From NCBI GenBank assembly GCA_945902805.1, contig CAMDMZ010000001.1:124001-188000 (forward strand): 64,000 nucleotides of DNA. Direction: 5' to 3'. Numbering within the stretch: position 1 is the stretch's first letter; each line of letters begins with the position of its first letter. The notes beneath the pieces are model-generated. The model made no database searches. It saw nothing but the letters and a program-made list of their open reading frames with translations, and was not told the origin of the DNA. The position numbers and the translations under genes were made by a program. Positions 12,766 through 59,856 of the stretch are shown piece by piece. The stretch is from Propionivibrio dicarboxylicus (lineage in GTDB: Bacteria; Pseudomonadota; Gammaproteobacteria; Burkholderiales; Rhodocyclaceae).

Positions 12766-14529
12766 ATGTCGGACATTGACACCAAGGCCACGGACGCCAA
12801 ACCCTCCAATTTCATTCGCCACATCATCGATGATGAGCTCGCCGCCAACAAGTTCGCCCGCCGAACCTGGTCCGGCGCGCCCGGCCCGGCGGCACAGCAA
12901 AAAGTCGGCGCTGGCGACACGGCGAAGATACGCACCCGTTTCCCGCCGGAGCCCAACGGCTACCTCCACTTCGGTCACGCCAAGTCGATCTGCCTGAACT
13001 TTGGCTTGGCGCGCGACTACGGCGGGGTGTGTCATCTGCGTTTCGACGACACCAACCCGGAAAAGGAAGAGCAGGAATACGTCGACTCGATCATCGATGC
13101 CGTGAGCTGGCTGGGTTGGAGCTGGGGCGATCACCTGTACCAGGCCTCGAACTATTTTCAATGGATGTACGATTTCGCCGAGAAATTGATCGAATCCGGC
13201 CACGCCTACGTCGATTCGCAATCGGCCGACGAAATGCGCGCGAATCGCGGCACCTTGACCGAAGCCGGCAAGAATTCGCCGTTCCGTGACCGCACGCCGG
13301 CCGAGAACCTCGACCTTTTCCGCCGCATGAAAGCTGGCGAGTTCGCCGACGGCACGCACATCCTGCGCGCCAAGATCGACATGGCCTCAGGCAATATCAA
13401 TCTGCGCGATCCGGCCATTTATCGCATCCGCAAGGCCACGCACCACAACACCGGCGACACCTGGTGCATCTACCCGATGTACACCTACGCGCACCCGATC
13501 GAGGACGCGCTGGAGAACATCACGCACTCGATCTGCACGCTGGAGTTCGAAGATCAGCGCCCGTTCTACGACTGGCTGCTGAACACACTGGCCGAGCTCG
13601 GCTGCATCGACCAGCCGGTACCACGCCAGATCGAGTTCGCCCGGCTCAATCTGTCCTACGTCGTACTCTCCAAGCGCAAGCTGATCCAATTGGTCGAAGA
13701 AAAGCATGTCGACGGTTGGGATGACCCGCGCCTGCCGACACTCGTCGGTGCACGCCGCCGTGGCTTCACGCCCGAAGGTTTCCGTCGCTTCGCCGACATG
13801 ATTGGTGTCGCCAAATCGGATTCGTGGATCGACTTCAGCGTCCTTGAAGACTGCATGCGCGAGCATCTAAACGAAACCGCGCCGCGCCGCATCGCTGTAC
13901 TCGACCCGGTCAAGCTGATCATCGACAACTATCCGGAAGGACAGGAAGAAGAATGTCTGGCGCCGAACCATCCGCAAAAGCCCGACTGGGGCAAGCGCCC
14001 GGTGCCATTGTCCAAGGAACTCTGGATCGAACGCGAAGATTTCATCGAAACGCCGCCCAAGGGCTACTTCCGTCTCTTCCCCGGCAACATGGTGCGCCTG
14101 CGCTATGGCTTCGTCGTCAAGTGCATTGGTTGCGATAAAGACGCCGCCGGCCACATCACCGCCGTCCATTGCGACTACATGCCGGATTCAAAGAGCGGCA
14201 CGCCAGGCGCCGACACCTACAAGGTCAAAGGCAACATTCATTGGGTCTCGGCCAAGCACGCCTATGCCACCGAAGTGCGTCACTACGACCGCCTGTTCGC
14301 GGTCGAAGCACCCGGCAGCGGTGGCCGTGATTTCCTTGAGGACATCAACCCGAACTCCAAGCAGGTCATCACCGCCCAGCTTGAAGCCGCGTTGAAGGAC
14401 GCGGTGGCCGAAGAGCGCTTCCAGTTCGAGCGCCACGGCTATTTCGTCGCCGATCGTGTGGATTCCAAAGCGGGAGCTCCGGTATTCAATCGGGCGGTCA
14501 CGCTGAAAGATTCGTGGAGCAAGAAGTGA
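12766..14529 (+). CDS. glnS: Glutaminyl-tRNA synthetase
   Basis: Charges tRNA-Gln. The 587-residue class I synthetase has [16 protein letters not shown] (HIGH variant), [10 protein letters not shown], and VLSKRKL (KMSKS equivalent), then the beta-barrel anticodon-binding domains. The ATG at 12766 is preferred over an upstream one because relatives begin near MSDxxTK. Between the N-terminal helix ([12 protein letters not shown]) and the catalytic core there is a loop, about residues 30-55, holding a copy of the dispersed motif read as KVGAGDTA; other betaproteobacterial enzymes also have a loop there. Confidence 0.96.
12901..12924 (+). repeat. Dispersed 24-base motif, copy 3 (in glnS)
   Basis: Exact consensus match (AC variant at the RB positions), gene sense, encoding KVGAGDTA in the loop before the HIGH region. 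Confidence 0.9.
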
Positions 14530-15344
14530 CTTTCATCGAACAATTGAGCACCGCCTGGCAGACGAACAATTCCCTGCTCTGCGTTGGCCTCGACCCCGAC
14601 CCGGCGAAGTTTCCGGCGCATCTGAAAAATGCACCGGACGCCATCTTCCGCTTTTGTAGCGAAATTGCGGATGCCACCGCCGATCTGGCCTGCGCTTTCA
14701 AACCACAGATTGCCTATTTCGCCGCCCGGCGTGCCGAAGATCAGCTCGAAGCCTTGATCGCGCATATCCACGAGAAGCATCCCGGCGTGCCGGTGATCCT
14801 CGACGCCAAACGCGGCGATATCGGTAGCACCGCCGAACAATACGCAATCGAGGCCTTCGAGCGCTACCAAGCCGATGCCGTGACGGTGAATCCCTACATG
14901 GGCCGCGACTCGGTTGAGCCCTGGCTGGCGTACAAAGACAAAGGAGTAATCCTGCTGTGCCGCACCTCGAACCCGGGTGGCAGCGATTTGCAGTTTCAAA
15001 AAGTCGGTTCTGGCGAGACGGCGCTTTATGAACTGGTGGCCGAAAAAGTCGCCACCGAGTGGAACACCAGCGGCCAATGCGCGTTGGTAGTCGGCGCCAC
15101 GTTCCCCGGCGAGATCGCCCGCGTGCGCCAGATCGTCGGCGACATGCCCTTACTGGTGCCCGGCATCGGCGCCCAGGGCGGCGACATCGAAGCCACCCTC
15201 ACCGCAGGCAAGACCAGCGCCGGCACTGGCCTCATGATTAATTCCTCGCGCGCCATCCTCTATGCCGGAAAAGACGAGAACTACACGGCAGCGGCCCGGC
15301 GCGTCGCCCAGGAAACGCGCGACGCCATCAACCTCTGGCGTTGA
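14526..15344 (+). CDS. pyrF: Orotidine 5'-phosphate decarboxylase (PyrF type 2)
   Basis: Makes UMP in the last step of de novo pyrimidine synthesis. The 272-residue protein is the longer class 2 form: LCVGLDPDP near the start, [14 protein letters not shown] with the catalytic Asp-Lys-Asp, and [10 protein letters not shown] near the end. I chose GTG at 14526, which overlaps the glnS stop (GTGA) and gives MTFIEQL as in relatives; an in-frame GTG exists at 14514. A motif copy is read as KVGSGETA near residue 159, in the loop after GGSDLQF. Confidence 0.95.
15000..15023 (+). repeat. Dispersed 24-base motif, copy 4 (in pyrF)
   Basis: One mismatch (TCT for GCT). Gene sense, encoding KVGSGETA. Confidence 0.85.
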
Positions 15345-20424: not shown

Positions 20425-21075
20425 TTAGCTCTGCTGGCCGTAGCTGACGAATTTTTCGATCACACGCTGCATCTCGTCGTCCGGTAGCAATTTCGCCGTG
20501 CCGAGCTGCAAAACCCGCCAGTATTGTTCGCACAGCGTTTCCAGCTCTATCGCCAGATCCAGCGCCTGGCGCAAATCCTTGCCGAAGACGAGCATGCCGT
20601 GATGCGCCATCAGGCAGGCTTGGCGTTGATCCAGCGCGACGAGGATCGCGTCGGAAAGCGCCTGCGTGCCAAAGGTCGCGTAATCGGCGCAGCGCACGCT
20701 GTCGCCACCAAAGCGCGCCACCATGTAATGAAATGCCGGCACGCCCATGTCCTGGCAGGCGAGCGCTGTCGCAAATGAAGAATGCGTATGCACGATGGCA
20801 CCCGCGTGCGGATGAGCGGCATAAATATCGTGGTGAAATCGCCATTCGGACGAGGGTTTGCGAGTGCCAAGCGCCGTCCCGCCAGCACCGACTTTTACCA
20901 TGTCGTCAGCACTACAGTCGGCGTAAGCCATCCCGGTCGGCGTGATGATGAAGGCCAATTCATCGTCCGGACAGCGGACGCTGACATTACCGGCCGCGCC
21001 GCGATTGATGCCGCTGGCGTTCATTGCCCGCGCTGTCGCCAGCACAGTCGCCGCTAGGTTATTCAGCTCCGCCAT
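20425..21075 (-). CDS. Class II (zinc) aldolase of the 5-deoxy-sugar phosphate type
   Basis: A 216-residue AraD/FucA-family aldolase: GNVSVR, PSSEW (catalytic Glu region), HTHS (two zinc His) and AHHGML (third His region). It overlaps mtnA by 13 bases. In the DHAP shunt described in Rhodospirillum rubrum and E. coli, MtnA product ribulose-1-phosphates are cleaved by such an aldolase to DHAP and an aldehyde; that role is inferred from the pairing. MtnB dehydratase shares the fold and remains possible. A motif copy encodes KVGAGGTA near residue 61, without lengthening the loop before PSSEW. Confidence 0.82.
   Translation of the reverse strand: MAELNNLAATVLATARAMNASGINRGAAGNVSVRCPDDELAFIITPTGMAYADCSADDMVKVGAGGTALGTRKPSSEWRFHHDIYAAHPHAGAIVHTHSSFATALACQDMGVPAFHYMVARFGGDSVRCADYATFGTQALSDAILVALDQRQACLMAHHGMLVFGKDLRQALDLAIELETLCEQYWRVLQLGTAKLLPDDEMQRVIEKFVSYGQQS
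20872..20895 (-). repeat. Dispersed 24-base motif, copy 5 (in the class II aldolase)
   Basis: Exact consensus match (GG variant), gene sense, encoding KVGAGGTA. Confidence 0.9.
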
Positions 21076-22103
21076 TGTGTGATTTGCGACGGTGGCAAGA
21101 CGCCGCGTTCGGAAATGATGCCAGTAACCAGCGCCGCCGGTGTCACGTCGAAAGCCGGATTGGCGACGGGCACCCCATCCGCCCCGAGTTCCGCGCCATC
21201 GCGCTCCTCGATCGGAATCTGTCGCCCTGTCGCGCAGGAGAAATCAATCGTAGACACGGGTGCGGCGACGTAAAACGGAATCCCGTGTGCCTGCGCCGCC
21301 AGGGCCTTAAGGTAGGTACCGATCTTGTTCGCCACATCACCATTGGCCGCGACGCGGTCAGCACCGACGATCACCAGATCGATCTTCCCCTGCATCATCA
21401 AAAGGCCGGCGGCGTTATCCGCGATCAGAGTATGCGGCACGCCGACTTCGGCCAATTCCCAGGCGGTCAGTCGTCCCTGATTACGCGGACGTGTCTCGGA
21501 CACCCAGACATGGACGGGAATTCCTGCAGCATGCGCGGCATAGACGGGAGCCAGAGCCGTACCATGCGCCACGGTGGCCAGACGTCCGGCATTGCAATGG
21601 GTCATCACTTGCACGAAGGCGCTGTTCACTTCAGCGCGATAGTGTGCGGCGAGCAAGGGCAAACCATGCTTACCGATGGCGGAATTTGCGCTGATGTCCT
21701 CGCGTGCGATGGCGCGCGCCTCGTTCCACGCCGCCTCCCGCCGTCCCGCCAGCGCCGACTTTTTGAGTACCTGCGCCATTCGCGCCAAGGCCCAATGCAA
21801 ATTGACCGCCGTCGGGCGAGTCGCGCCAAGGGTATCCAGAACTCGGTCAAGTTGAGCATCGGAAACGTCATTGCGCAAACCCAGAGCCACGCCATACGCT
21901 GCCGTAGCACCGATCAGTGGCGCGCCACGAACCTGCATGACGCGAATCGCGTGAGCCGCGTCTTCGAACGTGGAAAGTCGAATCAGTTCAGCCGCATGCG
22001 GTAAGCGGGTCTGATCAAGGATGAGGATGCCAGGTTCGCCCTGGTTGTCATCCTCGATCAGCGTCGGGTACTGCGTGACGCTCAACTCAGTTTGCCATGA
22101 CAA
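21063..22103 (-). CDS. mtnA: 5-methylthioribose-1-phosphate isomerase
   Basis: Converts 5-methylthioribose-1-phosphate (and 5-deoxyribose-1-phosphate) to the ribulose form. The 346-residue protein has [10 protein letters not shown], the catalytic cysteine in THCNAG (Cys170) and Asp249 in [18 protein letters not shown]. The start is uncertain: TTG at 22103 overlaps the secA stop by 22 bases; TTG at 22087 is an alternative. No mtnK or mtnP is in the window. A motif copy is read as KKSALAGRR (about 114-122). Confidence 0.93.
21739..21762 (-). repeat. Dispersed 24-base motif, copy 6 (in mtnA)
   Basis: Exact consensus match (GG variant). Gene sense but in a different frame from most copies, giving KSALAGRR. 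Confidence 0.9.
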
Positions 22104-32737: not shown

Positions 32738-34130
32738 GATCCGCCTTTCCGGCCAACTTGGCGGGCACGCCACCGATCGAGCCAGCGCCCATGGTAATGA
32801 TCACATCGCCATCACGTGCAGCGGCGCGGATCGCGGTCGGCATGTCGGCGATAGCCTCGACGAACACAGGTTCGACCTTGCCAGCCACGCGTACCGCCCG
32901 CGCCAGGGTGCGGCCATCCGCCGCCACGATGGGTGCTTCGCCGGCCGCATAGACATCGGCCAGGACGAGGCCATCGACAGAACTCAGCACTTTGACGAAA
33001 TCTTCGAAGCAATCGCGCGTGCGGGTATAGCGATGCGGCTGGAAGGCCAGCACCAGGCGCCGACCCGGGAAGGCGCCGCGCGCGGCAGCAATCGTCGCCG
33101 CCATCTCCACCGGATGATGGCCGTAGTCGTCGATCAAGGTGTATTCGCCACCATTCGCCGCCGTGAGTTCGCCATAGCGCGTGAAACGCCGGCCGACGCC
33201 CTTGAATTCAGCCAGGGCCTTGATGATCGCCGTATCGCCAACACCGACTTCTGTCGCCACGGCAATCGCTGCCAGCGCATTCAGCACATTGTGCCGGCCC
33301 GGCAGATTGAGCACGATGGGCAGACGCGAGACGCTGCCATTGGTGCGCACGCAGGTGAAGCGCATGGTGCCGGCATCGGCAACGATGTCTTCGGCGCGGA
33401 AATTCGCCTCGCGGTCGATACCGTAGGTCACCACCTGCTTCGCCACCCGTGGAATGATTTCGCGCACATTGGCGTCGTCGGCACAGACCACGGCGACCCC
33501 ATAAAACGGCAGGCGCTGCAGGAAATCGACAAAGGCGGTCTTGAGCCGCTCGAAGTCGTGGCCGTAGGTTTCCATGTGATCGGCGTCGATATTCGTGACG
33601 ACTGAAATCACCGGTGACAGGAAGAGGAACGAGGCATCCGACTCGTCGGCTTCGGCGACGAGGAATTCACCGCTGCCCAGGCGCGCGTTGGCGCCGGCAG
33701 AATTCAACCGGCCGCCGATGACGAAGGTCGGATCGAGACCGCCTTCCGCCAGGCAACTCGCCGCCAGACTGGTGGTCGTAGTCTTGCCGTGCGTGCCGGC
33801 AATCGCGACGCCCTGCTTGAAGCGCATCAATTCGGCCAGCATCTGCGCCCGTGGCACCACCGGCAGCTTGCGTTCGCGCGCGGCGATTACTTCCGGGTTG
33901 CTTTCCTTCACGGCGGTCGACACCACCACGGCGTCAGCGGCATCGACATTGGCCGCCTGGTGACCGATGTCCACGCGGATGCCCTGCTCGGCCAGGCGTT
34001 GCGTGGTCGCACTGGCCACGAGGTCGGAGCCGCTGACCTCGTAGCCCTGATTGGCCAGCACTTCGGCGATGCCCGACATACCGGAGCCGCCGATGCCAAC
34101 AAAATGTATGCGCTTGACTTTATGTTTCAT
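32730..34130 (-). CDS. murC: UDP-N-acetylmuramate--L-alanine ligase
   Basis: Adds L-Ala to UDP-MurNAc. The 466-residue protein has [17 protein letters not shown] (Rossmann loop), [12 protein letters not shown] (ATP), [10 protein letters not shown] and [12 protein letters not shown]. Start ATG at 34130 overlaps the murG stop (ATGA). A motif copy in gene sense is read as VGVGDTAI just before [13 protein letters not shown], a conserved region where family members have a segment of the same length. Confidence 0.97.
33228..33251 (-). repeat. Dispersed 24-base motif, copy 7 (in murC)
   Basis: Two mismatches to the consensus. Gene sense, encoding VGVGDTA in a conserved part of the protein with no extra length. 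Confidence 0.65.
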
Positions 34131-35182
34131 TGAGCGAGTTCCTTGCAAATGACGGCCACGCCGGCGGTCGCCTCCGGCCGCGCCAGTGCGCGCGCCTTTT
34201 CGGCCATCTGACACAGCTGTTCGCGCGAGAGGCGGCGGATTTCGGTCAGCCGCTCCGGCGTCAATTCGGTTTGTGGCAACAGAATCGCGGCGCCGGCGTT
34301 GGATAGAAAGCGGGCGTTCGATGTCTGATGGTCATCCACGGCATGCGGAAACGGCACCAGCAGACTGGCGACTCCCGCTGCCGCCAGTTCGGCGATGGTC
34401 AGGGCACCCGCGCGACAGATCACCAGATCGGCCCAGGCATAGGCGCCGCCCATATCCTTGATGAAGCTCACGCAGTTGGCGCGTACACCAGCGCTGGCAT
34501 AGTCGGTATTGAGCTGGGTCAGGTGCTTCTCGCCGGCCTGATGAACAATTTCCGGCCGTTCTGCTTCAGGAATCAGCGCCATGGCCTTGGGCAAGGCTTC
34601 GTTCAAGGCCAGCGCCCCCAGGCTGCCGCCAATCACCAGGATGTGTAAGGGGCCACTACGTTCGGCATAGCGAAAAGTCGGTGCTGGCAGGACGGCGATT
34701 TCGGGCCGCACCGGGTTGCCGATCCATTCGGCCTTTTTCAACACATCGGGGAATCCGGTTAAAACGCGATCAGCGACGCCGGCCAGGACGCGATTGGCCA
34801 GTCCGGCCACGGAATTTTGCTCATGCAGTACCAGCGGAATCCCTTTCAACGCCGCCATCATGCCGCCGGGAAAGGTGATGTAACCACCGAAGCCGAGCAC
34901 GACATCCGGCTTCACTCGCTTCAGCGCGCGCAAGGCGAGGAGGAAACCACGCAACAGGTTGAATGGCAGCAGCAACTTGCGCATCAGGCCTTTGCCACGC
35001 AAGGCAGCAAACTGCACCCAGGCCATTTCGTAACCGCGTCCAGCGGTCAGCTTGACTTCCATGCCGTCCGGATTTCCCATCCAGGCGATATGCCAGCCGT
35101 CAGCTTTCATGACTTCGGCCACGGCGATGCCCGGCATGATGTGCCCGCCCGTGCCACCCGCCATGATGAGGATCGTCTTCAT
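34127..35182 (-). CDS. murG: Lipid II synthase MurG (GT28 glycosyltransferase)
   Basis: Transfers GlcNAc to lipid I at the inner face of the membrane. The 351-residue protein has [39 protein letters not shown] (G loop 2), [15 protein letters not shown] and [20 protein letters not shown] at 35182 overlaps the ftsW stop. A motif copy lies in antisense orientation and gives [10 protein letters not shown] near residue 170, where relatives have a segment like ALPAPAERFA of equal length. Confidence 0.97.
34674..34697 (+). repeat. Dispersed 24-base motif, copy 8 (in murG, antisense)
   Basis: One mismatch (GGCA for GGCG). Opposite orientation to murG, where it encodes AVLPAPTF. Confidence 0.8.
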
Positions 35183-36345: not shown

Positions 36346-37739
36346 GGCAGGCTCCGAACAGCGGCGATGAAGGCTTCGGCCCGGTGTTCATAGTTGCGGA
36401 ACATGTCGTAACTGGCACAGGCCGGCGACAGCAGTGCGGCGTCACCCGCTTGGGCATGCCGCGCCAGACGATTCACGGCATCGCTCATGTCGGTCGCGGT
36501 TTCCAGACACACGCCGGTAGCAGCCAGCACTTCTCCAATCGCCGGACCATCACGACCAATCAGGACCACCGCCCGCGCGTGACGCGCTACCGCCGACGCC
36601 AATGGGGAAAAATCCTGGCCCTTGCCATCGCCGCCAAGGATCACCACCACTTTGCCACCCATGTCACCCAGGCCACCGAGTCCATTTAGCGCCGCGACGG
36701 TGGCACCTACGTTGGTGCCTTTGGAGTCGTCGTACCAGGTCACGCCACCAATTTCGGCGACCTTTTCGACGCGATGTGGCAGGCCACGAAATGCTCGCAG
36801 TGCCGGCAGCAATGCGCTCACGGAAAATCCCAGAGTGCCGCACAAGGCCAAGGCAGCCATCGCGTTGGCGGCATTGTGCAGCCCACTGAGCGGTAACTCG
36901 GAGACGGGCAGTAGAAAGCGATCACCCTGCACGAGCCAAGGTTCGCCGCGATTGTCGCGCAGGCCAAAGTCATGGGTATCGCCCGGAGCGTCGAATCCGA
37001 AACTGACGATCTGACGACCCGCAATAGCCATGCTCTTGACGCGCGCATCGTCACGATTCAGCACCTGCACACCCTCGCCGCAGAAGACGCGCGCTTTGGT
37101 CCTGCTGTAGTCATCGAGGTCGATGTAGCGATCGAGATGGTCGTCAGAAATATTCAGGACGGTGGCCGCCAGCGGGTTCAGCGTTGCCGTGGTTTCAAGC
37201 TGGAAACTCGACAGTTCCAGCACCCAGACCTCGGGCAGCGCCGCCGCATATTCGGCATCCATCAAGGCCGTGAGTGCGGCCGGGGAAATATTGCCGGCCA
37301 CCCCGACGCGCTTGCCGGCAGCAGCGACCAGATGTCCGGTCAGCGCCGTGGTGGTGGTCTTGCCATTGGTGCCCGTAATCGCCAACACCGGCACACTGGG
37401 CGAGAGTTCCTGCACACCCCAGGAAAACAATTCAATCTCGCCAATCACCGGAATTCCAGCGGCGCGGGCGTGGATCACGGCCATCAAGCCACCAGACAAA
37501 CCCGGCGAGAGCACCAGCAGATCGACCCCGGCCAGCAAGATCTTGTCGAATCCCTCGTTCAAGGGCGTACTGAAAAAGTCGGCTCTGGCGACACGGCGCT
37601 TGAGCTCGCCCAGGTAGGGCGGTTCGGCGCGGCTATCGACCACGCGCACCTGGGCGCCACGGCGCGCGCACCAGCAGGCCGCTGCGAAACCGGATTCGCC
37701 GAGGCCAAGAATCAACACGTGTTTGCCGGCCAACTTCAT
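36339..37739 (-). CDS. murD: UDP-N-acetylmuramoylalanine--D-glutamate ligase
   Basis: Adds D-Glu to UDP-MurNAc-L-Ala. The 466-residue protein has [13 protein letters not shown] (N domain), [17 protein letters not shown] (ATP), [10 protein letters not shown] and [20 protein letters not shown] at 37739 overlaps the mraY stop by one base; a long in-frame extension upstream lies inside mraY and is rejected. A motif copy in antisense gives [11 protein letters not shown] near residue 50, in the variable N-terminal domain. Confidence 0.97.
37575..37598 (+). repeat. Dispersed 24-base motif, copy 9 (in murD, antisense)
   Basis: One mismatch (TCT for GCT). Opposite orientation to murD, where it encodes RRVARADF. 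Confidence 0.85.
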
Positions 37740-40265: not shown

Positions 40266-41779
40266 GGGCGCCGTCCTCCCATCCGCAACGGCGAGGAGAG
40301 CGTTTTTTGCTCGACCGCCTTGTTGCGCAGTAGCTTCATCAGCGCCGACTTTGCGGCCTCAAGATCGGAATAGGGAATTCGCACGCCGGCGATCTCCTGA
40401 TAGGGTTCGTGGCCTTTGCCGGCCACCAAAATGACGTCACGCACGTCGGCCGTTGCAATCACCGCCGCCAGCGCCTGGGCTCGATCGACTTCGACCTTTG
40501 GTGACGTAGACAAGCCAGCCAGAATCATGTCGATGATCGCTTGCGGAGTTTCGCTGCGCGGATTGTCGCTGGTGACCCACACGGTATCGGCATGGCGCTC
40601 GGCCATGGCGCCCATCTGCGGACGCTTGCCCGGATCACGATCACCACCACAACCGAAGACGCAAACCAACTTGCCGCCACGGGCGGTGGCGGTATCGCGC
40701 AAGGCGGTCAGGGCCTTCTCCAGTGCGTCCGGCGTGTGCGCATAGTCAACGATCACCAGTGGTTGCGCTTCGCCGCCCAGCGCCTGCATGCGTCCCGGTG
40801 GCGGCTCGATGTGGCGCAGAACCACCGCGATATCGTCCAGCGTTTCGTCGCCGGCCAGCAGAGCACCGATCACGGCCAGTAGATTGGAGGCGTTGAAACG
40901 CCCCACCACCGGCGCCGCGATCGCCACGCCATCCAGGGTGAATTCAACGCCGCGCGGACCGGCACGCAAATCGGTCGCCTGCAGCACATGATCCGTTCCC
41001 GTGCGTCCCTCCAGACTGTAACCGATGGTCCTGATCGAGCCGTGCAGACGCGCGGCAAGCTCACGACCGAAGTCGTCATCGAGATTCAGCACGGCAGTCT
41101 TCAAGCCCGGCATAGCAAACAGCTTGGCTTTGGCTTCACCGTAAGCCGCCATGGTGCCGTGATATTCCAGATGATCGCGCGTCAGATTGGTGAAAACGGC
41201 GACATCAAACTGCGCCCCATTCGCCCTCCCCTGATCGATGCCAATCGACGAAACCTCCATGGCACAAGCGACCGCGCCGTGACGGACATAGTCGGCCAGG
41301 GCGGCATGAAAGCCAACCGCGTCGGGCGTGGTGTTCGGGCTCGGGTCCAGATGGGGCGGAAAGCCATTGCCCAGCGTGCCGATCACCGCGCATTTGCATT
41401 CAAGCCGATTCATGGCCTGCGCAATCCATTGCGACACCGAAGTCTTTCCATTGGTGCCGGTGATGCCCGCCAGCCAGAGCTGTTCCGAGGGCTTGCCATA
41501 CACCAGATGAGCAATTTCGCCGGCCAACCGGGCCAGATTCTCGACCGCAATCACCGGGACCGCCGTCCCGCCAGCGCCGACTTTTTCGCCGTGCTCGGCC
41601 AGAACCGCAACAGCGCCGTTGGCCAACGCCTGGGCGATGTACTGACGCCCGTCCACGCGCGCACCGGGGTAGGCGAGGAAAACGTCGCCCGGCTTGACGC
41701 GGCGCGAGTCAACAGCCAGTCCGGCCGGCCTGATGCCACGCTGGTGAAGTTGCGCAATGATCGCCTGCGCTGCGCTCAC
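40262..41779 (-). CDS. murE: UDP-MurNAc-L-Ala-D-Glu--2,6-diaminopimelate ligase
   Basis: Adds meso-diaminopimelate to the stem peptide. The 505-residue protein has [30 protein letters not shown] (ATP), HLEYHGTMAAYGEAK with the carbamylated-lysine region, and the diaminopimelate signature TSDNPRSETP (DNPR). A motif copy gives KVGAGGTA at residues 66-73 in the N-terminal domain, in a loop whose length seems normal for the family. A 13-base partial match is present near the 3' end (40341-40353). ATGA overlap with ftsI. Confidence 0.97.
   Translation of the reverse strand: MSAAQAIIAQLHQRGIRPAGLAVDSRRVKPGDVFLAYPGARVDGRQYIAQALANGAVAVLAEHGEKVGAGGTAVPVIAVENLARLAGEIAHLVYGKPSEQLWLAGITGTNGKTSVSQWIAQAMNRLECKCAVIGTLGNGFPPHLDPSPNTTPDAVGFHAALADYVRHGAVACAMEVSSIGIDQGRANGAQFDVAVFTNLTRDHLEYHGTMAAYGEAKAKLFAMPGLKTAVLNLDDDFGRELAARLHGSIRTIGYSLEGRTGTDHVLQATDLRAGPRGVEFTLDGVAIAAPVVGRFNASNLLAVIGALLAGDETLDDIAVVLRHIEPPPGRMQALGGEAQPLVIVDYAHTPDALEKALTALRDTATARGGKLVCVFGCGGDRDPGKRPQMGAMAERHADTVWVTSDNPRSETPQAIIDMILAGLSTSPKVEVDRAQALAAVIATADVRDVILVAGKGHEPYQEIAGVRIPYSDLEAAKSALMKLLRNKAVEQKTLSSPLRMGGRRP
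41561..41584 (-). repeat. Dispersed 24-base motif, copy 10 (in murE)
   Basis: Exact consensus match (GG variant), gene sense, encoding KVGAGGTA. Confidence 0.9.
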
Positions 41780-51977: not shown

Positions 51978-52460
51978 TTGCATACACGTTTCCCCGCACT
52001 ATTCGCCACCCTCACGGCGCTGCTGAGCGCCCCGCTGATGGCCCAGGAGCCGCAGCTTTCCTCCGGCCAGACAATCTACCTGCCGGTGTATTCGCATGTT
52101 TATCACGGTGACGTGAACAAACAGGGCAAGCCGGCCGAGACGCTGGTCTCGACCCACGTCAGCATTCGCAATACCGATCCTGCGGTTGCCATTCGCCTCA
52201 CGAGTGCCCGCTACTTCGATACGCAAGGTAAACAAGTGCGCAACTATCTGCCGGCAGCCGTCACGGTGCCGCCGTTGGGCACGCATGAACTGTTCGTACC
52301 GCGCAGCGATACGGCCGGTGGCTCGGGCGCCAATTTCCTGATCGTATGGACGGCGGAAGCGCCAGCGAATCCCCCGCTCGTCGAAGCGCTACACGCCGAC
52401 ATTCGCGAAGCCCGCACGTTGATGCTGCATACCTCAGGCGTGGTCATCAAGGTACGCTGA
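51978..52460 (+). CDS. DUF3124 family exported protein
   Basis: A 160-residue protein with a Sec signal peptide (ending near LMAQEPQ) and the DUF3124 core: GQTIYLPVYSHVYHG, LVSTHVSIRNTD and ANFLIVWTAE. Function unknown. TTG at 51978 is chosen because AGGAGA (51965-51970) lies seven bases upstream; the in-frame TTG at 51972 is too close to it. Follows the antiporter by 32 bases and may share its transcript. Confidence 0.78.
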   Translation: MHTRFPALFATLTALLSAPLMAQEPQLSSGQTIYLPVYSHVYHGDVNKQGKPAETLVSTHVSIRNTDPAVAIRLTSARYFDTQGKQVRNYLPAAVTVPPLGTHELFVPRSDTAGGSGANFLIVWTAEAPANPPLVEALHADIREARTLMLHTSGVVIKVR

Positions 52461-52475: not shown

Positions 52476-52499
52476 AAAGTCGGCGCTGGCGACACGGCG
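52476..52499 (+). repeat. Dispersed 24-base motif, copy 11 (intergenic)
   Basis: Exact consensus match (AC variant), 15 bases after the DUF3124 stop and about 90 bases before the AHSA1 start. Shows that the signal is not tied to coding. Confidence 0.9.
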
Positions 52500-52591
52500 C
52501 ATCGCCTCTCACCTGATGCTGGTCCCATCAGCCCTTTACCGACGCCCCCCAGCCATCGGATTTCACCTTGCGATTTAGAAAGGATCCCTCC

Positions 52592-53038
52592 TTGACAGCA
52601 CAAATCAGCGCAGACGGTGTTTTCTCATCCAGCCGTTTCTTCCCATTCACTCCCGAGCAGGTTCTTGCCGCGTTTGCCGATACAAACCGGCTTGCCACAT
52701 GGTGGGGACCGGACGGGTTCACCAACACATTCGAGATTTGCGAGTTCAAGCCTCAGGGTCGATGGCACTTTGTGATGCACGGTCCGGATGGCAAGAATTA
52801 TCGGAACGAAAATGTCTTCCTCGAAACCTCACTACCCAGAATCGTCATTCGGCACAACTCACAGCCAAACTTCACCCTGACCGTCACATTGACGGAAGAT
52901 GCCGGGAACACGAACCTTGTCTGGCACCAAGCCTTCGACGATCCCCGATTCGCTGCGAACGTGGCACACATCATCGTTCCGGCGAACGAGCAGAACCTGG
53001 ATCGTCTTCAAACCGTACTCTCGGTGACGACCAGGTGA
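52592..53038 (+). CDS. AHSA1/SRPBCC-domain protein
   Basis: A 148-residue START-like protein: FFPFTPEQVLAAFADTNRLA, WWGPDGFTNTFEICEFKPQG and WHFVMHGPDGKNY, all typical of the AHSA1 family (Aha1 C-domain fold), whose members bind hydrophobic ligands. Function unknown. TTG at 52592 is preferred because AGAAAGGA (52577-52584) sits seven bases upstream. Ends eight bases from the ubiC stop, convergent. Confidence 0.8.
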   Translation: MTAQISADGVFSSSRFFPFTPEQVLAAFADTNRLATWWGPDGFTNTFEICEFKPQGRWHFVMHGPDGKNYRNENVFLETSLPRIVIRHNSQPNFTLTVTLTEDAGNTNLVWHQAFDDPRFAANVAHIIVPANEQNLDRLQTVLSVTTR

Positions 53039-53046
53039 CGTGCCTT

Positions 53047-53670
53047 CTATCCGCCGGCACCCACGAGCGGTGGCAGAAAGACCTCCGTAACCAGTAGCCG
53101 CGCCGTGCCGCGCGCGAACAAGGCCCGCCGGGCCATCAGCGTCAAAGGCAGGCCATACGACGATTCGCCATACCACGATTGTGCGGCCGCATAGAGCGGA
53201 TGTCGAATATCGATCCGCCGATATTGGAGCGGCCCGGCACTGACTTTCGGATCGGTGAATAACACCATGGCAAGCGCATTGCGGCCGGCGCGGCGCAAGA
53301 GGCGCGTGGCCGGGGCATTCGCCAAGGTATGGGCAAACACCCACGGCACACCGGCGACGGTGAGCACGACCTCGCGCACCATCACCGACCGGCCACAATG
53401 CCCGCTACCGGGCGCGCCGATAAACCATTCCTCATCACGATTCGGCCGGGCTCTGGTTTGACGCACGCGCAGCACCTTGGTCGCACCAAATCGCTGCAAA
53501 CGGGCCGTCAACGAGGCACTTTCGCGTAACCATGGGGCGATTCCCGCTGACCGAGCAATACGCTCACCCACACCCGGGCGCAAATCAAGTGGCAGCAGCG
53601 GCAACCAACCGCCCGCATCAGGCGAATGAGCGCGGCGGTCGGGGCGGCGACGGTGAGTGCTAAGTTTCAT
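53047..53670 (-). CDS. ubiC: Chorismate lyase
   Basis: Makes 4-hydroxybenzoate from chorismate for ubiquinone. The 207-residue protein has the UbiC pattern: WLRESASLTARLQ, VREVVLTVAGVPWVFAHT, SSYGLPLTLMARRALFARG and LLVTEVFLPPL with the catalytic Glu. ubiA is not next to it here. The ATG at 53670 is used; an alternative lies five codons upstream. Confidence 0.88.
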   Translation of the reverse strand: MKLSTHRRRPDRRAHSPDAGGWLPLLPLDLRPGVGERIARSAGIAPWLRESASLTARLQRFGATKVLRVRQTRARPNRDEEWFIGAPGSGHCGRSVMVREVVLTVAGVPWVFAHTLANAPATRLLRRAGRNALAMVLFTDPKVSAGPLQYRRIDIRHPLYAAAQSWYGESSYGLPLTLMARRALFARGTARLLVTEVFLPPLVGAGG

Positions 53671-53690
53671 AGGGACAAAACCCAATCAGG

Positions 53691-54659
53691 CTATGGTTTG
53701 GCGACGCACTTTTCGGCATTGAGTTCCTGAATCCGACGGACACTAAAACTGTCCGCCGGGCGCTCGGTGCGCTTCAAGGCGATTTCGATATCGCGTAGCT
53801 GAGCGCAATCCAGTGTCGGGTTGTGCAACAGGCGCTGGACGACAAAGCTTTCCTTGGTGCTGGCGATGATTGCCTGGATGATTTCTCGCGGCGTGGCCGG
53901 ATTGTCGGCGAAGGAGCGATCGAGCCCCATGATGGTCGGCGGCCGGCGGAATAGCTCGGTCAGGATCTCCGGCGGCGTATTCGGATGACTGGCAAGCGCC
54001 TGAAAGAAATAGTCCGGATACGAATGCGTGCGGTAAATCCGCGTCAGTGTCTCGGCCCGACAGTTCGGGTTTCTGACGGCGGACAAGGCAATGCCGAGAT
54101 CGTCGTGGGCCGCGAGTTGATCCAGCGTGTCGGCTGCAACAAAGGGGCTTTCCAGAATTGGCAACAGATAATTTCGGTCATCCGCGTGCTCACGGATCAG
54201 TCGGGCAAGGGTTTCCGTTTCGTGACCGGGGGCTTGCGGGAGCGCCGCGCGAATCGCCTGCCGATTGCGATCGATCGCAGCAAGACTCGCCCGATGCTGT
54301 TCGTCTCGGCTGGCGTTGAGTGCAATGCTCTGAAAACCCTGAAACACCAGCAGCGCCGGCACCGCCAGCGCGAGGACCAGGCAAATCCAGGCCAGCAGCC
54401 GTAACAGCGGCCGCTGGGCGCCACGCAAGTTGCCAAACAGCCAGGCCATTACTGCGGCAAACAGGGCGTAGAAGGGTAAAAACAAAATGCCGATAGCGGC
54501 GGTGGATGAGCGCGACTGAAAAATTGCCCATACGCCGACGCCGGCGACGGCCAGAAACATTCCCGTCGCCAGACCGAGCCCGCGCCAGCGCTTTTTCAGC
54601 GCCAGAAAAACCCCGCCACCGAGGATGAACAGCAGGAACGCGATCAGCAATCCGGGCAT
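53691..54659 (-). CDS. Membrane protein with LRV-like repeats
   Basis: A 322-residue protein with four hydrophobic segments in the first 140 residues (about 3-20, 27-45, 52-78, 85-110) followed by a soluble domain of about 180 residues with degenerate repeats: NPNCRAETLTRIY, HPNTPPEILTELF and DNPATPREIIQAI. These resemble the leucine-rich-variant (LRV) repeat seen in some bacterial proteins. Function unknown. Lies 20 bases upstream of ubiC on the same strand. Confidence 0.65.
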   Translation of the reverse strand: MPGLLIAFLLFILGGGVFLALKKRWRGLGLATGMFLAVAGVGVWAIFQSRSSTAAIGILFLPFYALFAAVMAWLFGNLRGAQRPLLRLLAWICLVLALAVPALLVFQGFQSIALNASRDEQHRASLAAIDRNRQAIRAALPQAPGHETETLARLIREHADDRNYLLPILESPFVAADTLDQLAAHDDLGIALSAVRNPNCRAETLTRIYRTHSYPDYFFQALASHPNTPPEILTELFRRPPTIMGLDRSFADNPATPREIIQAIIASTKESFVVQRLLHNPTLDCAQLRDIEIALKRTERPADSFSVRRIQELNAEKCVAKP

Positions 54660-54842
54660 ACGAGTCGTAGCGTTATGGCGTGTGAGGGGGAATTGATCCG
54701 GAAAAATAGCCCAAATCCGAGGCTTTGGCACGAAATCTGCAATTTGTTGCTCAAGCACCCAAAAGATACGTGCGAAATGACCGTTAATCCAGTTATTGCC
54801 GCCACTCTTCTAAAAAGGCGGCATCCTTTGCCGGAGATCTTC

Positions 54843-55208
54843 ATGCAAAAAGCCAGTTCGAGAAAATCAGCAGTTCTCCCCCTTGGGATCAAGAATCGGA
54901 TTCAAACCGAATTGCCGGCCCTGGTGGCGTTGACCGCGATCGGCGAGCCGTGGTTTTCTGGCCAACACCAGTCGGATTTGCTCGCAGTTGGGTTGGTCGT
55001 CGGCGTGATGGCGCCGGAAGACAGTCTGCAAACGCAGTGTGCCGCCGAATTGCAGCGCCTGTGCGAACAAGTGATCACGATCGAGAACAAGGTCGAGATC
55101 GCCCTCAACCTCGCCGAATGTCTACCGTGGCTGCAGATGCAGCCCAATCATCGGGTTCAGCGCGCGTTACAACTTGTCATTTCGCAGCGTTGCCGGCAGG
55201 CGGCTTAA
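54843..55208 (+). CDS. Conserved-looking hypothetical protein
   Basis: A 121-residue, mostly helical soluble protein with no signal or family I know (IKNRIQTELPALVALTAIGE, then a C-terminal helix pair). ATG at 54843 is chosen for GGAG at 54833-54836; an earlier in-frame ATG at 54777 has no ribosome site. It is convergent with darP, 16 bases between stops. Confidence 0.55.
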   Translation: MQKASSRKSAVLPLGIKNRIQTELPALVALTAIGEPWFSGQHQSDLLAVGLVVGVMAPEDSLQTQCAAELQRLCEQVITIENKVEIALNLAECLPWLQMQPNHRVQRALQLVISQRCRQAA

Positions 55209-55224
55209 GTCAGAAAACAACCTT

Positions 55225-55821
55225 TCAATCAGCGTCATCAGCGTCTGTAACGTCTCCGGCCGCCGTCTCGCCAGCACCGACTTTTTCAGCCCCTTCGACC
55301 AGTTGTCGCAGTTGGCGAAATAGTTCGCGAAAGGCGCGCGGCGGCTTTTGCTGCTCGATTTCCTTTAACGCGTTGCGGCGCAATTGACGTAAATACTGGA
55401 TATCGGCATCCGGGTAGTCGCGGCCAATCTCGGCGAACACGGCATCGTCTGCCATCAGACGTTCGCGCAGCTTTTCCAGATGATGCTGGCGCGCGGTGGC
55501 AGCCGCCGAGACACCCTTGACTTCATCCAGCGCCGCTTGCAGCGGTTCGGTATCGACACTGCGCATAAGCTTGCCGATCAATTGCATCTGGCGCCGTCGG
55601 GCGCCGTGCTGGGTGAAGCGCTGGGCATCGCGCAAGGCTTCACGCAGATTGTCGGGGATGTCGATTTTCTTCAGGCGTTCCGGCGATAAGGCGACCAGTT
55701 CCTCGCCCATATCCTGCAGCGCGGTACTCTCGCGCTTGCGCTGCGATTTGCTCGGGCCGGCCCAAAAAAATTCGGTTTCAGTATCGTCAGATTCCACGGG
55801 TAAGATTCGGGTCTTGTTCAT
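55225..55821 (-). CDS. darP: Ribosome biogenesis factor DarP (YjgA)
   Basis: Helps late 50S subunit assembly. The 198-residue helical protein has KSQRKRESTALQDMGEELV, HGARRRQMQLIGKLMR and DYPDADIQYLRQLRRNA, all DarP signatures. The acidic C-terminal tail (about 178-198) includes a copy of the motif read as KVGAGETA followed by a run rich in Asp; this tail is outside the family core. Divergent from pmbA, the usual arrangement. Confidence 0.92.
   Translation of the reverse strand: MNKTRILPVESDDTETEFFWAGPSKSQRKRESTALQDMGEELVALSPERLKKIDIPDNLREALRDAQRFTQHGARRRQMQLIGKLMRSVDTEPLQAALDEVKGVSAAATARQHHLEKLRERLMADDAVFAEIGRDYPDADIQYLRQLRRNALKEIEQQKPPRAFRELFRQLRQLVEGAEKVGAGETAAGDVTDADDAD
55261..55284 (-). 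repeat. Dispersed 24-base motif, copy 12 (in darP tail)
   Basis: Exact consensus match (AG variant), gene sense, encoding KVGAGETA in the C-terminal tail. Confidence 0.9.
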
Positions 55822-55836
55822 GGTGAGGATTGTCGC

Positions 55837-57174
55837 ATGTCCCAAGGGTTCAGCCATTCCCGGCCGGTGCTGAAAGCGCTTGCCCAGCAAGTACTCGATT
55901 ACGCTGCCAAAGCAGGCGCTACCGCGTGCGAGGTGGATGTTTCAGAGGGTTTTGGACAATCGATCACCGTGCGCCGGCAAGCGGTCGATACCATTGAGTA
56001 CAACCGCGACAAGGGGCTCGGCATCACGGTCTACCTCGGTCAGCGCCGTGGCCACGCCAGCAGTTCGGATTTTTCCGAACATGCCATGCAGGCCACCGTC
56101 GATGCGGCCCTGGCGATTGCCCGCTTCACGGCCGAAGATGATTGTGCCGGCTTGCCTGACGCCAGTTTGCTGGCGAAAAAGTCGATGAATCTCGACTTAT
56201 TCCATCCCTGGGATGTTTCGGTCGAGCAGGCCATCGATATTGCGGCACGCTGTGAACAGGCCGCGTTCGATGTCAGCCCGCTGATCAAGAACTCCGAAGG
56301 CGCGAGCGTTTCAGCGCAGCAGTCACAGTTCATCTCGGCCAACAGCCTGGGTTTCATGGACGGCTTTGCGACCACGCGCCATTACGTTTCCTGTTCGGTA
56401 ATCGCCGGCGAAGGCGACGACATGCAGCGCGACGACTGGTACGTTTCCGAGCGTGATGCGGCCTTGTTCAAGGATCCCGCCGCGATTGGCGATTACGCCG
56501 CGCGCCGTGCGCTCTCTCGCCTGGGTGCGCGCAAACTGTCGACGCGCAAATGCCCGGTGATCTTTGAAGCGCCGCTGGCGACCGGTCTGATCGGCAATTA
56601 CGTGTATGCCGTATCCGGCGGCTCGCTGTACCGCAAGACCTCGTTCCTGCTCGACAGCCTGGGCAAACAGATATTCCCCGACTTCATGCAAATCAGCGAA
56701 CGGCCACATCTGAAAGGCGCCATGGCATCCTCGCCCTTCGACGATGACGGTGTCGCCACGAAAAATCGAGAAGTGGTCAAGAATGGCCATGTCGAGGGCT
56801 ATTTCCTCTCAACCTACTCGGCGCGCAAGCTGGGCATGCAGACGACGGGTAACGCCGGCGGTTCGCACAACCTCTTGGTCAAATCGGGAAAACACAACCT
56901 GGACGGCCTGTTGCGGGAGATGGGCAAAGGACTTTTGGTCACCGAATTGCTTGGCCAGGGCGTGAACTACGTAACCGGTGACTACTCACGTGGCGCGGCG
57001 GGATATTGGGTCGAAAACGGCAAGATCGCTTATCCGGTGCATGAGATCACCATCGCCGGCAACCTCAAGCAGATTTTTGCAGACATCGCCGAGATCGGCA
57101 CGGATACCGTGGCCCGTGGTTCGAAGCAAATCGGGTCGGTGCTAATCGATCGCATGACCATCGCCGGAAATTGA
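55837..57174 (+). CDS. pmbA: Metalloprotease-related protein PmbA (TldE)
   Basis: Partner of TldD in a zinc protease that trims peptides, for example microcin precursors and the CcdA antitoxin. The 445-residue protein has VDTIEYNRDKGLGITVYLGQ, SQFISANSLGF and GNAGGSHNLLVKSG, typical of the TldE subunit, which lacks the catalytic HExxxH of TldD. No tldD in the window. Starts 15 bases from the darP start on the other strand. Confidence 0.95.
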   Translation: MSQGFSHSRPVLKALAQQVLDYAAKAGATACEVDVSEGFGQSITVRRQAVDTIEYNRDKGLGITVYLGQRRGHASSSDFSEHAMQATVDAALAIARFTAEDDCAGLPDASLLAKKSMNLDLFHPWDVSVEQAIDIAARCEQAAFDVSPLIKNSEGASVSAQQSQFISANSLGFMDGFATTRHYVSCSVIAGEGDDMQRDDWYVSERDAALFKDPAAIGDYAARRALSRLGARKLSTRKCPVIFEAPLATGLIGNYVYAVSGGSLYRKTSFLLDSLGKQIFPDFMQISERPHLKGAMASSPFDDDGVATKNREVVKNGHVEGYFLSTYSARKLGMQTTGNAGGSHNLLVKSGKHNLDGLLREMGKGLLVTELLGQGVNYVTGDYSRGAAGYWVENGKIAYPVHEITIAGNLKQIFADIAEIGTDTVARGSKQIGSVLIDRMTIAGN

Positions 57175-57179
57175 GCTTC

Positions 57180-58520
57180 TTACGGCGACAGGGCGCTATC
57201 GATATCGGCCCGATTGCGCTCGTCAACGTAAACATGGCTCGGCTCTGACTTGCTGTCGGGGAAGCAACTAACCACCACATTGCTGATCGGGGCTGCTTTG
57301 CTTAGCACCTCAACGGCACAGCGGCCGTAGGCGCTCTCAATCGTCGCCAGCAGGTTGCGCGCATACGGCGTCGCCAGCCGACCGTCGAGTATCAGATTAG
57401 CCAGCAGCACACCGCCGGGTTTTAGCGCGCGGCGCGTCGTGCGCCAGAATTCGCGAGTGACCAAATCCGCCGGAATCGAGGTGCGGGCGCTGAACACATC
57501 GACGACGATGGCATCGTAGTATTGGGTGGTCTTGGCCACATGGGCGCGCGCATCGCCGACAATGAATTCGCCCTGTATCGGCTCCTTGAGAAACTGCGTT
57601 TCGGCGATTTCGCGAATCGATGGATCGATGTCGATGTAGGTATAACGGTTGGTCGGTTCGCGATGCGAAAGTGTAAAGCCGCCGGCACCCAGAACCAGAA
57701 TATCGCGGTCAGCAAACGCCAGGTCCTTGAGCAGAATATGGCGCATGTGTTCGATGTACCGCGCATACGCCGGCGGCGTGCTTTCGTCGATCATCGAGGC
57801 GATCTGCTGGTTGACGCTGAAGGAACGCGGCGCCGTCATGTCATTGCGACCCACCGCCTCGACGGCGTAATCGGCATAGGCGGTATCGGCGCGGTTGCGG
57901 TCGCGCAGATTGACGACGACGGCGATGGCCGCGACGATGATCAGCAAGAGGGCACTGGCCACACGGGGCGGTTGCACCAACGCCGCGCCCAGCACCAGCA
58001 GCAGGGCGCCGAACAAAACGGCTGACCAAACGCCGAAGGCCTGCATCATGCCCAACGAGAGGGTGATCGAACCAAGAAAACTCCCCAGGGTGGACCAGTA
58101 CAACGCTCGCCCGGCCGCTTCGCCACTGCGCTCGGCGTGCATCAGGTTGGTGAGTATCGGCACCGTCTGACCCAGTAGCCAGGCCAGCGGGCCGAGCACC
58201 GTCGCGATGAACAGCAGGTAGGCCAGCAGCGTCGGCGCGCTGGCAAAAATCGCATCGACACTGCCACCGGCCAATCCGGCACCCATCAGAGTCGCCGAAA
58301 TCATGAGATTGCGCGCCACGACGCCACGGAAGTCGGTTGCCACGCGGCTGCCTGAGTGATAGCCAAGCGCCAACGCGAGCAGGAAAAATCCGATGGTCGG
58401 CGCAGTCACGACGATCGAACTACCAACGTGTGGAATCAGGCGCCGCAGGGCGATGACTTCGGCGCCGAGAGAGCAGTAGCCTTCGATGAAAACGATGGTG
58501 AACAGGAGGTGCGGCGACAT
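57180..58520 (-). CDS. Membrane-fused spermidine-synthase-like protein
   Basis: A 446-residue protein: about seven membrane helices (1-205) joined to a SpeE-type Rossmann methyltransferase-like domain (about 215-440) with ILVLGAGGFTLSHR, YIDIDPSIREIAE, DARAHVAKT and IVVDVFSA. The GGG/D signatures of true aminopropyltransferases are only partly kept, so polyamine synthesis is not assured; such fusions may modify an unknown substrate at the membrane. Convergent with pmbA, five bases apart. Confidence 0.82.
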   Translation of the reverse strand: MSPHLLFTIVFIEGYCSLGAEVIALRRLIPHVGSSIVVTAPTIGFFLLALALGYHSGSRVATDFRGVVARNLMISATLMGAGLAGGSVDAIFASAPTLLAYLLFIATVLGPLAWLLGQTVPILTNLMHAERSGEAAGRALYWSTLGSFLGSITLSLGMMQAFGVWSAVLFGALLLVLGAALVQPPRVASALLLIIVAAIAVVVNLRDRNRADTAYADYAVEAVGRNDMTAPRSFSVNQQIASMIDESTPPAYARYIEHMRHILLKDLAFADRDILVLGAGGFTLSHREPTNRYTYIDIDPSIREIAETQFLKEPIQGEFIVGDARAHVAKTTQYYDAIVVDVFSARTSIPADLVTREFWRTTRRALKPGGVLLANLILDGRLATPYARNLLATIESAYGRCAVEVLSKAAPISNVVVSCFPDSKSEPSHVYVDERNRADIDSALSP

Positions 58521-58671
58521 GGCGGCAGGATACCTTGCGGCGACACGAAATCGTCTTGACGAGTGCCGTTAGCTATATCCTTTGGTGTAGTATTTCAAAA
58601 CGGTCCGCAACCGGGACCGCCGCTGTTGAAAGTCGTCAATACGAGAACACAAAACCAAGGAGACGCAAACT

Positions 58672-59754
58672 ATGGAACGACGGAAATTTTTGCAACACGC
58701 TGGCTTGACCGGCATCTTGGCTGCGGGCGCCGCGCCGGCGATTGCCCAGTCCGCCCCCACGATCAAGTGGCGTTTGACCTCAAGCTTCCCCAAGAGCCTG
58801 GATACGATTTACGGCGGTGCCGAGGTGCTGGCCAATCGCGTCAAAGCCATGACCGGTGGCAAATTCGACATTCAGGTTTTCGCCAGCGGCGAAATCGCCC
58901 CCGGTCCGCAGGCGTTGGACGTTACCCAGAACGGTACTGTCGAGTGCTGCCATACCTGCTCCTATTACTTCGTCGGCAAGGACAAGACCTTCGCCTTCGG
59001 CACCGCCGTACCCTTCGGCATGAACGCTCGCCAGATGAACGCCTGGATCTACTACGGCGGTGGCCAGAAGCTGCTTGATGACTTTTACAGCAACTACAAC
59101 GTCGTCTCCTTCGCTGGCGGCAACACCGGCGTGCAGATGGGCGGCTGGTTCCGCAAGGAGATCAAGACGCTGGCTGACGTTAAAGGTCTCAAGATGCGCA
59201 TCGCAGGCCTCGGCGGTGCCGTATTTTCCTCGCTGGGTGCCGTGCCGCAGCAGATCCCGGGCTCGGATATCTACCCCGCACTGGAAAAAGGTACTATCGA
59301 TGCGGCCGAATGGGTCGGCCCCTATGATGACGAGAAGCTGGGCTTCTTCAAGGTCGCCAAGAACTACTACTTCCCGGGTTGGTGGGAGCCGGGTCCGGTC
59401 ATTCACTTCTTCGTGAACAAGGATCAGTGGGCCAAGCTGCCGAAGGAATACCAGGAAATCTTCCAGGCCGCTGCGTACGAAGCCAACGTGACGATGATGG
59501 CTGAATACGACCACAAGAACCCGGCGGCGCTGCGCCGCCTGGTCGGTCAAGGGGTCAAGCTCAAGAAGTATTCGAAGGATATTCTCGAATCCGCCTACAA
59601 GGCCGCCGTCCAGCTCTACTCCGACGAGTCGGCAAAGAACCCAGCCTTCAAGAAGATCTATACCGAGTACCTCGCCTACCAAAAGACGCAGAATCAGTGG
59701 TTCAGCGTCGCAGAGCTGGGTATGGATGACTTTCTGCAGAAAAAAATCCGGTAG
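58672..59754 (+). CDS. dctP: TRAP transporter substrate-binding protein, TakP-like
   Basis: A 360-residue periplasmic DctP-family protein with a twin-arginine signal (MERRKFLQHAG, cleaved near AIAQ). WVGPYDDEKLGFFKV, YYFPGWWEPGP and the RIAGLGGAVFSSLG region match the subgroup that includes TakP, which binds 2-oxo acids such as pyruvate. Substrate here is inferred to be lactate or a 2-oxo acid given LutB/LutC nearby. It converges on dctM across a strong terminator, so it has its own promoter in the 151-base gap upstream. Confidence 0.9.
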   Translation: MERRKFLQHAGLTGILAAGAAPAIAQSAPTIKWRLTSSFPKSLDTIYGGAEVLANRVKAMTGGKFDIQVFASGEIAPGPQALDVTQNGTVECCHTCSYYFVGKDKTFAFGTAVPFGMNARQMNAWIYYGGGQKLLDDFYSNYNVVSFAGGNTGVQMGGWFRKEIKTLADVKGLKMRIAGLGGAVFSSLGAVPQQIPGSDIYPALEKGTIDAAEWVGPYDDEKLGFFKVAKNYYFPGWWEPGPVIHFFVNKDQWAKLPKEYQEIFQAAAYEANVTMMAEYDHKNPAALRRLVGQGVKLKKYSKDILESAYKAAVQLYSDESAKNPAFKKIYTEYLAYQKTQNQWFSVAELGMDDFLQKKIR

Positions 59755-59780
59755 CAATCCATCCGGTAGTTTCGCTTGCC

Positions 59781-59818
59781 CCAATAAAAATCCCCGCTGC
59801 GGCGGGGATTTTTATTGG
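59781..59818. terminator. Bidirectional Rho-independent terminator
   Basis: A perfect 17-base stem (CCAATAAAAATCCCCGC and its complement) around a four-base loop, with the T-run inside the stem on both strands. It sits 26 bases after dctP and 52 bases beyond the dctM stop, serving both genes. Confidence 0.95.
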
Positions 59819-59832
59819 CCTTTGAACGGATA

Positions 59833-59856
59833 AAAGTCGGCGCTGGCGAGACGGCG
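59833..59856 (+). repeat. Dispersed 24-base motif, copy 13 (intergenic)
   Basis: Exact consensus match (AG variant) between the terminator (ends 59818) and the dctM stop (59870). Confidence 0.9.

Follow-up and report, generated by a model that had tools for sequence, protein, structure and literature searches.

The 24-base motif AAAGTCGGYGCTGGCGNNACGGCG is repeated along a 64,000-nucleotide stretch of the Propionivibrio dicarboxylicus genome (assembly GCA_945902805.1, contig CAMDMZ010000001.1, positions 124,001 to 188,000 of the forward strand; this whole stretch is called the window below). It is probably a DNA uptake sequence of some Rhodocyclaceae genera and would work as such sequences do. 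The abundance of the motif, its origin by substitution at three genes, long retention, even spacing on both strands alike, rarity in divergent gaps, dialects and presence in some phages fit with DNA uptake sequences. Of the classes considered, the DNA uptake sequence (DUS) of Neisseriaceae and the uptake signal sequence (USS) of Pasteurellaceae match the features of the motif best; in sequence the motif belongs to neither family. A protein at the cell surface, part of the type IV pilus or competence system, would bind the motif, and motif-bearing DNA would be taken up preferentially. Recombination of the imported DNA could then spread and restore the motif by molecular drive, where genes tolerate it.

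Abundance and block structure of the motif

The window contains 13 copies of the motif with up to three mismatches, compared with none in 100 shuffled sequences. Two intergenic copies, starting at 52476 and 59833, are exact. The genome (4.86 Mb, 129 contigs) contains 835 copies, 439 on the forward and 396 on the reverse strand (one per 5.8 kb), and the backwards pattern used as a control was found 1 and 0 times. Over-representation on both strands, evident here from the genome-wide counts, is characteristic of DNA uptake sequences.

A matrix was built from 93 aligned copies taken from 464 kb of this one genome (20 stretches and the window). Its consensus, AAAAAGTCGGYGCTGGCGRGACGGCG, covers about 26 bp and about 40 bits (41.0 in the dialect comparison), with some positions being steadily variable. 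The 24-base motif is extended at the 5' side by two further A (86% and 57% A). GTCGG is invariant, and TG and ACGG are conserved at 99–100%. Position 9 is T in 66% and C in 34% of copies, position 17 is a purine in 98%, and the flanks carry nearly zero information. Forward-pattern copies with 0 to 6 mismatches number 45, 28, 17, 3, 2, 4 and 33, while the reversed pattern gives 2 copies at 4 mismatches and 21 at 6. The two peaks of the forward counts indicate that the motif copies are kept sharp.

Among copies with up to three mismatches, per-site deviation is 1.7% in the first block, 7.2% in the second and 2.0% in the third. The outer arms AAAGTC and ACGGCG, with 12 bases between them, are conserved; deviations are about four times as frequent in the middle. 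The original prediction divided the motif into three constant blocks separated by fixed gaps, one pyrimidine and two variable bases. This layout is upheld by the matrix; the second of the two bases, position 18, is G in 78% of copies and hence is not freely variable in this genome. The alternative set beforehand, uniform decay along the whole motif, is absent from the matrix and the deviation rates, in which the variable positions are fixed. Co-variation between the blocks, proposed as a check, was not seen: none of the 55 position pairs was convincing (smallest p 0.033, uncorrected).

Genomic placement, spacing and strand

Gene calls for the 464-kb sample were made by a simple purpose-made caller (92% coding). 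Fifty-five of the 93 copies lie wholly within genes, 36 are intergenic and 2 extend across a gene edge. Intergenic sequence, 8% of the total, has 36 of 91 copies, about five times the number that its length would predict (p 1e-16). Of these 36, 15 are in convergent gaps, where 5.0 would be expected from length, and 2 in divergent gaps, where 12.9 would be expected. The AHSA1-like gene at 52592 was missed by the caller (other missed genes are possible); the copy at 52476 actually lies between two forward genes, and the convergent count therefore becomes 14. Within genes, 33 copies run along the gene direction and 22 opposite to it, one of the three reading frames being unused in each direction. 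Greater conservation of intergenic than of coding copies was also looked for and did not appear, exact copies making up 18 of 36 and 27 of 55, respectively (p = 1; the 2 edge-overlapping copies excluded).

The copies had been described as single, not as inverted pairs, and hence as not acting as terminators. They are single indeed, since the closest two of the 93 are 215 bases apart. CCGAC within 14 bases 3' of the motif, which could complete a hairpin with it at 59833, accompanies 2 of the 36 intergenic copies, and the folding energy of intergenic copies does not differ from that of coding copies (p 0.48). A general terminator function was rejected on these grounds, in agreement with the description. 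The copy at 59833..59856 (plus strand), between the convergent dctP (58672-59754, plus) and dctM (59870-61603, minus; both named by Pfam), is one of the two with the CCGAC flank. Together with this flank (to 59861) it reads GTCGGCGC-N10-GCGCCGAC followed by TTTT on the minus strand, and it forms a hairpin with an 8-pair stem and a loop of 10, located 8 bases after the dctM stop on the minus strand. This copy with its flank is probably the dctM terminator on the minus strand, and for it the description probably does not hold. Another terminator-like hairpin between dctP and dctM, at 59781..59818 (folding z -6.1), is separate from the motif hairpin and stronger. The distance from it to the motif copy is 14 bases and not 15, as had been given. 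That the motif as such is a transcription terminator or regulatory site is highly improbable: the share of copies in convergent gaps and the hairpin at 59833 speak for such a role, and the many copies wholly within called genes on either strand, the rarity of the CCGAC flank and the folding indistinguishable from that of coding copies speak against it.

The copies are spaced more evenly than random ones (coefficient of variation 0.63 vs. a random mean of 0.95). None of 5000 random placements was as even, and the largest gap is 13.2 kb. No strand bias was found: neighbouring copies share a strand in 44 of 87 cases, with 54 copies on the plus and 39 on the minus strand. In the single-contig genome G068, exact copies number 60 forward and 53 reverse; its first 1.9 Mb in contig coordinates contains 33 forward and 23 reverse exact copies by hand count. 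Two papers describe even spacing without orientation bias for known uptake sequences (PMC7811141, PMC1939737), and both properties are present in the 464 kb of this one genome.

Even spacing, whole-genome distribution and a long asymmetric sequence could also belong to a chromosome-organising or repair site, the copies being used by an intracellular DNA-binding protein for compaction, segregation or recombination. Karlin et al. (PMC1939737) proposed a chromosome role for known uptake sequences because of their even spacing. For the present motif such a site is unlikely; no reader protein is known, and the lack of strand bias sets the motif apart from oriented sites. Chi, FtsK-orienting polar sequences (KOPS) and similar motifs are oriented and genome-wide. 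The motif resembles them in being genome-wide and short, and it differs in being longer and without the strand bias of replichores, as judged by neighbouring copies.

Among the remaining copies in the window, the other intergenic one (52476..52499, plus, exact, preceded by AA) starts 15 nt past the stop of the DUF3124 gene (ending at 52460; Pfam E 6e-36), as had been predicted, and 92 nt before the AHSA1-like gene (52592-53038, plus; Pfam). The helicase/DUF3418 gene (4617-8375, minus) contains two copies on the minus strand, an exact one at 5487..5510 and one with 2 mismatches at 7882..7905. Plus-strand copies lie in the genes for a class I tRNA synthetase of the E/Q type (12901..12924, exact) and orotidine 5'-monophosphate decarboxylase (15000..15023, 1 mismatch). 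Exact minus-strand copies lie in a class II aldolase gene (20872..20895), in an IF-2B family gene (21739..21762) and near the 3' end of darP (55261..55284; gene 55225-55857, minus). The four remaining copies belong to the cell-wall gene cluster.

Origin by substitution, spread and dialects

Twenty genomes, including 7 motif-rich ones, were used to compare the cell-wall gene cluster; the partial G044 stretch was excluded. The names murC, murD, murE and murG were inferred from Pfam and gene order. In the window, copies occur in murC (33228..33251, minus, 2 mismatches), antisense in murG (34674..34697, plus, 1 mismatch), antisense in murD (37575..37598, plus, 1 mismatch) and in murE (41561..41584, minus, exact). 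The murC, murD and murG copies are common to 6, 7 and 6 of the 7 motif-rich genomes, respectively, and these positions shared across genera show long retention. At the same three sites all 13 other genomes (11 motif-poor, G009 with another dialect, G022 with few copies) align gap-free, with 7–16 mismatches each. Gap-free alignment to genomes without the motif excludes insertion at murC, murG and murD; the copies there arose by substitution, as is typical of uptake sequences. The murE copy is uninformative on origin, because its stretch is length-variable and 0 of 13 genomes align gap-free. Two additional sites of the cluster occur in one genome each, with 3 mismatches.

In a second genome set, G198, G148 and G160 have the murD copy with 1 mismatch; G289 and G294 lack it, as do three genomes of the other dialect (G009, G072, G168). 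In motif-rich G173 (L439) the murD site is split by an in-frame 36-base insertion. The length of the murE stretch, where G000 and G068 have the motif, differs widely from genus to genus (G001, G045, G063; L107, L109, L111).

Hundreds of near-identical copies would be expected of a mobile or copy-pasted repeat, such as a miniature inverted-repeat transposable element (MITE) or an element like the repetitive extragenic palindrome (REP). Inserted copies and terminal repeats or a palindrome, which mark such elements, were not found: the murC, murG and murD sites align without gaps to genomes lacking the motif, the flanks are not conserved and the motif is not palindromic. This explanation is hardly credible.

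The motif is largely limited to some Rhodocyclaceae genera. At least 100 copies are present in 37 of 297 family genomes, belonging to 7 of 68 genera by hand count. Rich genomes make up 11/12 of genus g2, 10/11 of g19, 9/9 of g64 and 4/4 of g46. The maximum in 48 genomes from other families of the order is 6 (G106), followed by 4 (G083). In a midpoint-rooted eight-protein tree six rich genomes form one clade and G018 is placed deeper; poor genomes stand between them, so that gains or losses must have occurred more than once. Among the 80 matching loci listed, named motif-bearing contigs have mostly Rhodocyclaceae, Rhodocyclales, Sulfuritalea, Sulfurisoma or Rugosibacter in their titles; a few, mostly metagenome bins, carry the names Thiobacillus, Casimicrobiaceae, Burkholderiaceae, Gammaproteobacteria or beta proteobacterium.

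Two genomes with rich congeners have low counts, G289 with 59 copies and G294 (87% complete) with 1. Their murD sites show 7 and 10 mismatches, respectively, without gaps. Both observations fit a dispensable mark better than a site for chromosome organisation or repair. Loss of ComEC as the cause of the low counts was rejected, because both genomes have ComEC.

Dialect seeds were taken from 9-mer counts. In genus g10 the loose motif search found 50, 43 and 23 copies in G009, G072 and G168. A search with the arms only (AAAGTC, 12 free bases, ACGGCG) found 441, 376 and 425, with 0–2 in the reversed controls. The copies listed for G009 and G168 have AAAGTCAGTC or a near form in place of AAAGTCGGYG. 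The dialect of G044 is AAAGTCGACGCTGG (6 copies); the 13 copies from G018 end in ACGGCA and show no conservation at position 4. The 9-mers of G022, G028, G289 and G294 (47 to 113 kb each) gave no sign of a dialect. The arm search was extended to 399 genomes of the order, of which 13 belong to the family. Outside the family it gave at most 14 copies (G377) and 5 or fewer in the others, with reversed controls reaching 12 in one genome. The 14 arm-pattern copies of G377, which belongs to another family, include both dialects, perhaps through contamination or transfer. 9-mers such as GCCTCTGCG and GCGCCTCTG are over-represented in the g2 genomes G068 (L094, L095, L106) and G289 (L428-L431); they may belong to another dispersed repeat.

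The arms and their spacing are the constant part of the motif, and the middle is the changeable part. Constant arms with a middle replaceable between genera give the strongest support to the earlier idea of blocks. The original prediction also proposed contact by a protein with two or three modules. The fixed-gap blocks and the constancy of the arms between genera agree with it, and the protein itself is deduced from these patterns. Constant arms and a changing middle are expected if the reader makes two contacts that stay constant and one that can change. A pilin-like receptor may contact the two arms, which start 18 bp apart, and the dialect may be set by the middle block.

Known uptake systems, phages and competence genes

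Like the DUS of Neisseriaceae, which is read by ComP, the motif occurs in many copies on both strands and has clade-specific dialects. It differs in belonging to another family and in its length (about 26 bp vs. 12 for DUS). Neisserial DUS form close inverted pairs at gene ends; the motif has none, as the distance between its nearest copies indicates. The reverse complement of the AG variant of the motif shares the 7-mer GCCGTCT with the DUS, perhaps by chance. CTG and an A, each in a fixed place, are common to all dialects of DUS (PMC3630211). The matrix and dialects of the motif do not show this pattern: the main dialect has CTG in its middle block and nowhere else, and the AAAGTCAGTC dialect lacks it altogether.

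The USS core of Pasteurellaceae is AAGTGCGGT, and USS also has an A-rich part and contacts beyond the core, in which the motif resembles it. The motif contains AAAGTCGG, which is one base from this core, perhaps by chance, and its consensus does not include the core itself. Nor does the consensus include ACAAGCGGT, the USS core given in PMC3630211. The motif further differs from USS in its GC-rich second arm and lower density. Even spacing, absence of orientation bias and presence in temperate phages are shared by the motif with USS (predicted receptor PpdA/ComN; PMC7811141, PMC1939737, PMC6776037). In the open-licence literature no report was found of an uptake sequence in Rhodocyclaceae or of natural transformation in Sulfuritalea. 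Among the papers listed, none found by genus name dealt with an uptake sequence, wider searches named no such sequence either, and of six motif strings only a 10-letter one occurred.

IMG/VR contigs with the motif contain at least 122 copies in at least 80 loci (731 kb; each locus was chosen for having the motif), and the other dialect is present in 24 IMG/VR stretches. Of ten proteins scanned from four motif-bearing stretches, nine match phage families, including DNA polymerase, primase, exonuclease, terminase, RNA ligase and tail fibre J. Five same-direction copies at 883-2239 of L286, a contig with a phage tail gene, are separated by 316, 316, 316 and 385 bases in a region without called genes; this is a tandem array or duplication, and the five are therefore not independent.

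Phages could carry the motif to pass as self, if it shielded DNA against a nuclease or defence system of the host. Phage contigs rich in copies (6 in 8.6 kb of L270; 4 in 18.8 kb of L444, which shares its contig with L344, three of the four lying within genes) point in this direction. So does a protein search with two phage genes, whose relatives have a copy in 1/22 and 6/80 loci, query loci included, and lack it in 21/22 and 74/80. Temperate Pasteurellaceae phages accumulate USS, which PMC6776037 attributes to their long stay in a host whose uptake is biased. The same explanation could hold here, and a self-protection mark is very unlikely.

The ComEC channel domain is encoded in 25 of 25 genomes tested, and type IV pilin gene clusters in 4 of 4 motif-rich genomes searched. 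This equipment is usual for organisms with uptake sequences; it is not specific to motif carriers.

Several points weigh against the motif being a DNA uptake sequence. The DUS and USS cores are 9–12 nt long (PMC12616744), and the present motif is far longer. Its density is below that of the Haemophilus influenzae USS, which are spaced about 1 kb apart (PMC7811141). That the motif is read during uptake is itself inferred from sequence patterns. ComEC is equally present in motif-poor genomes and in the low-copy G289 and G294. A receptor tracking the motif was not found among the ComP-type and MshO-like pilins of 150 family genomes. Minor pilins of the ComP type (PF16732) are present in 138 of these, motif-poor ones included, and PF16732 was not found in motif-bearing G044 and G185. 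An MshO-like pilin occurs in 79 of the 150, motif-poor ones too, and was not found in motif-rich G045 and G173. The ComP-type pilin as discriminating receptor was rejected because it is present regardless of the motif, a distribution that is uninformative on the receptor; the MshO-like pilin was rejected because it does not follow the motif.

A wider proposal than an uptake sequence of some genera is put forward tentatively, as a possibility somewhat short of even. The motif could represent a third, independently evolved bacterial code for self DNA, composed of AAAGTC and ACGGCG at the stated spacing; its receptor would have two parts and be distinct from ComP and ComN. The replaceable middle of the motif would give rise to dialects and to genetic isolation between genera.

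According to a 2025 paper (PMC12616744), selection of DNA at the binding step through short motifs is known from Neisseriaceae and Pasteurellaceae and from no other family. If the motif is a DNA uptake sequence, it would be the third case of an uptake code and would come from environmental bacteria. With its longer bipartite code, its dialects and its low-copy congeners, it would offer an independent test of how codes and receptors originate. Rhodocyclales are common in wastewater (PMC7054561), and the motif would provide a genome mark for natural transformation in this group.

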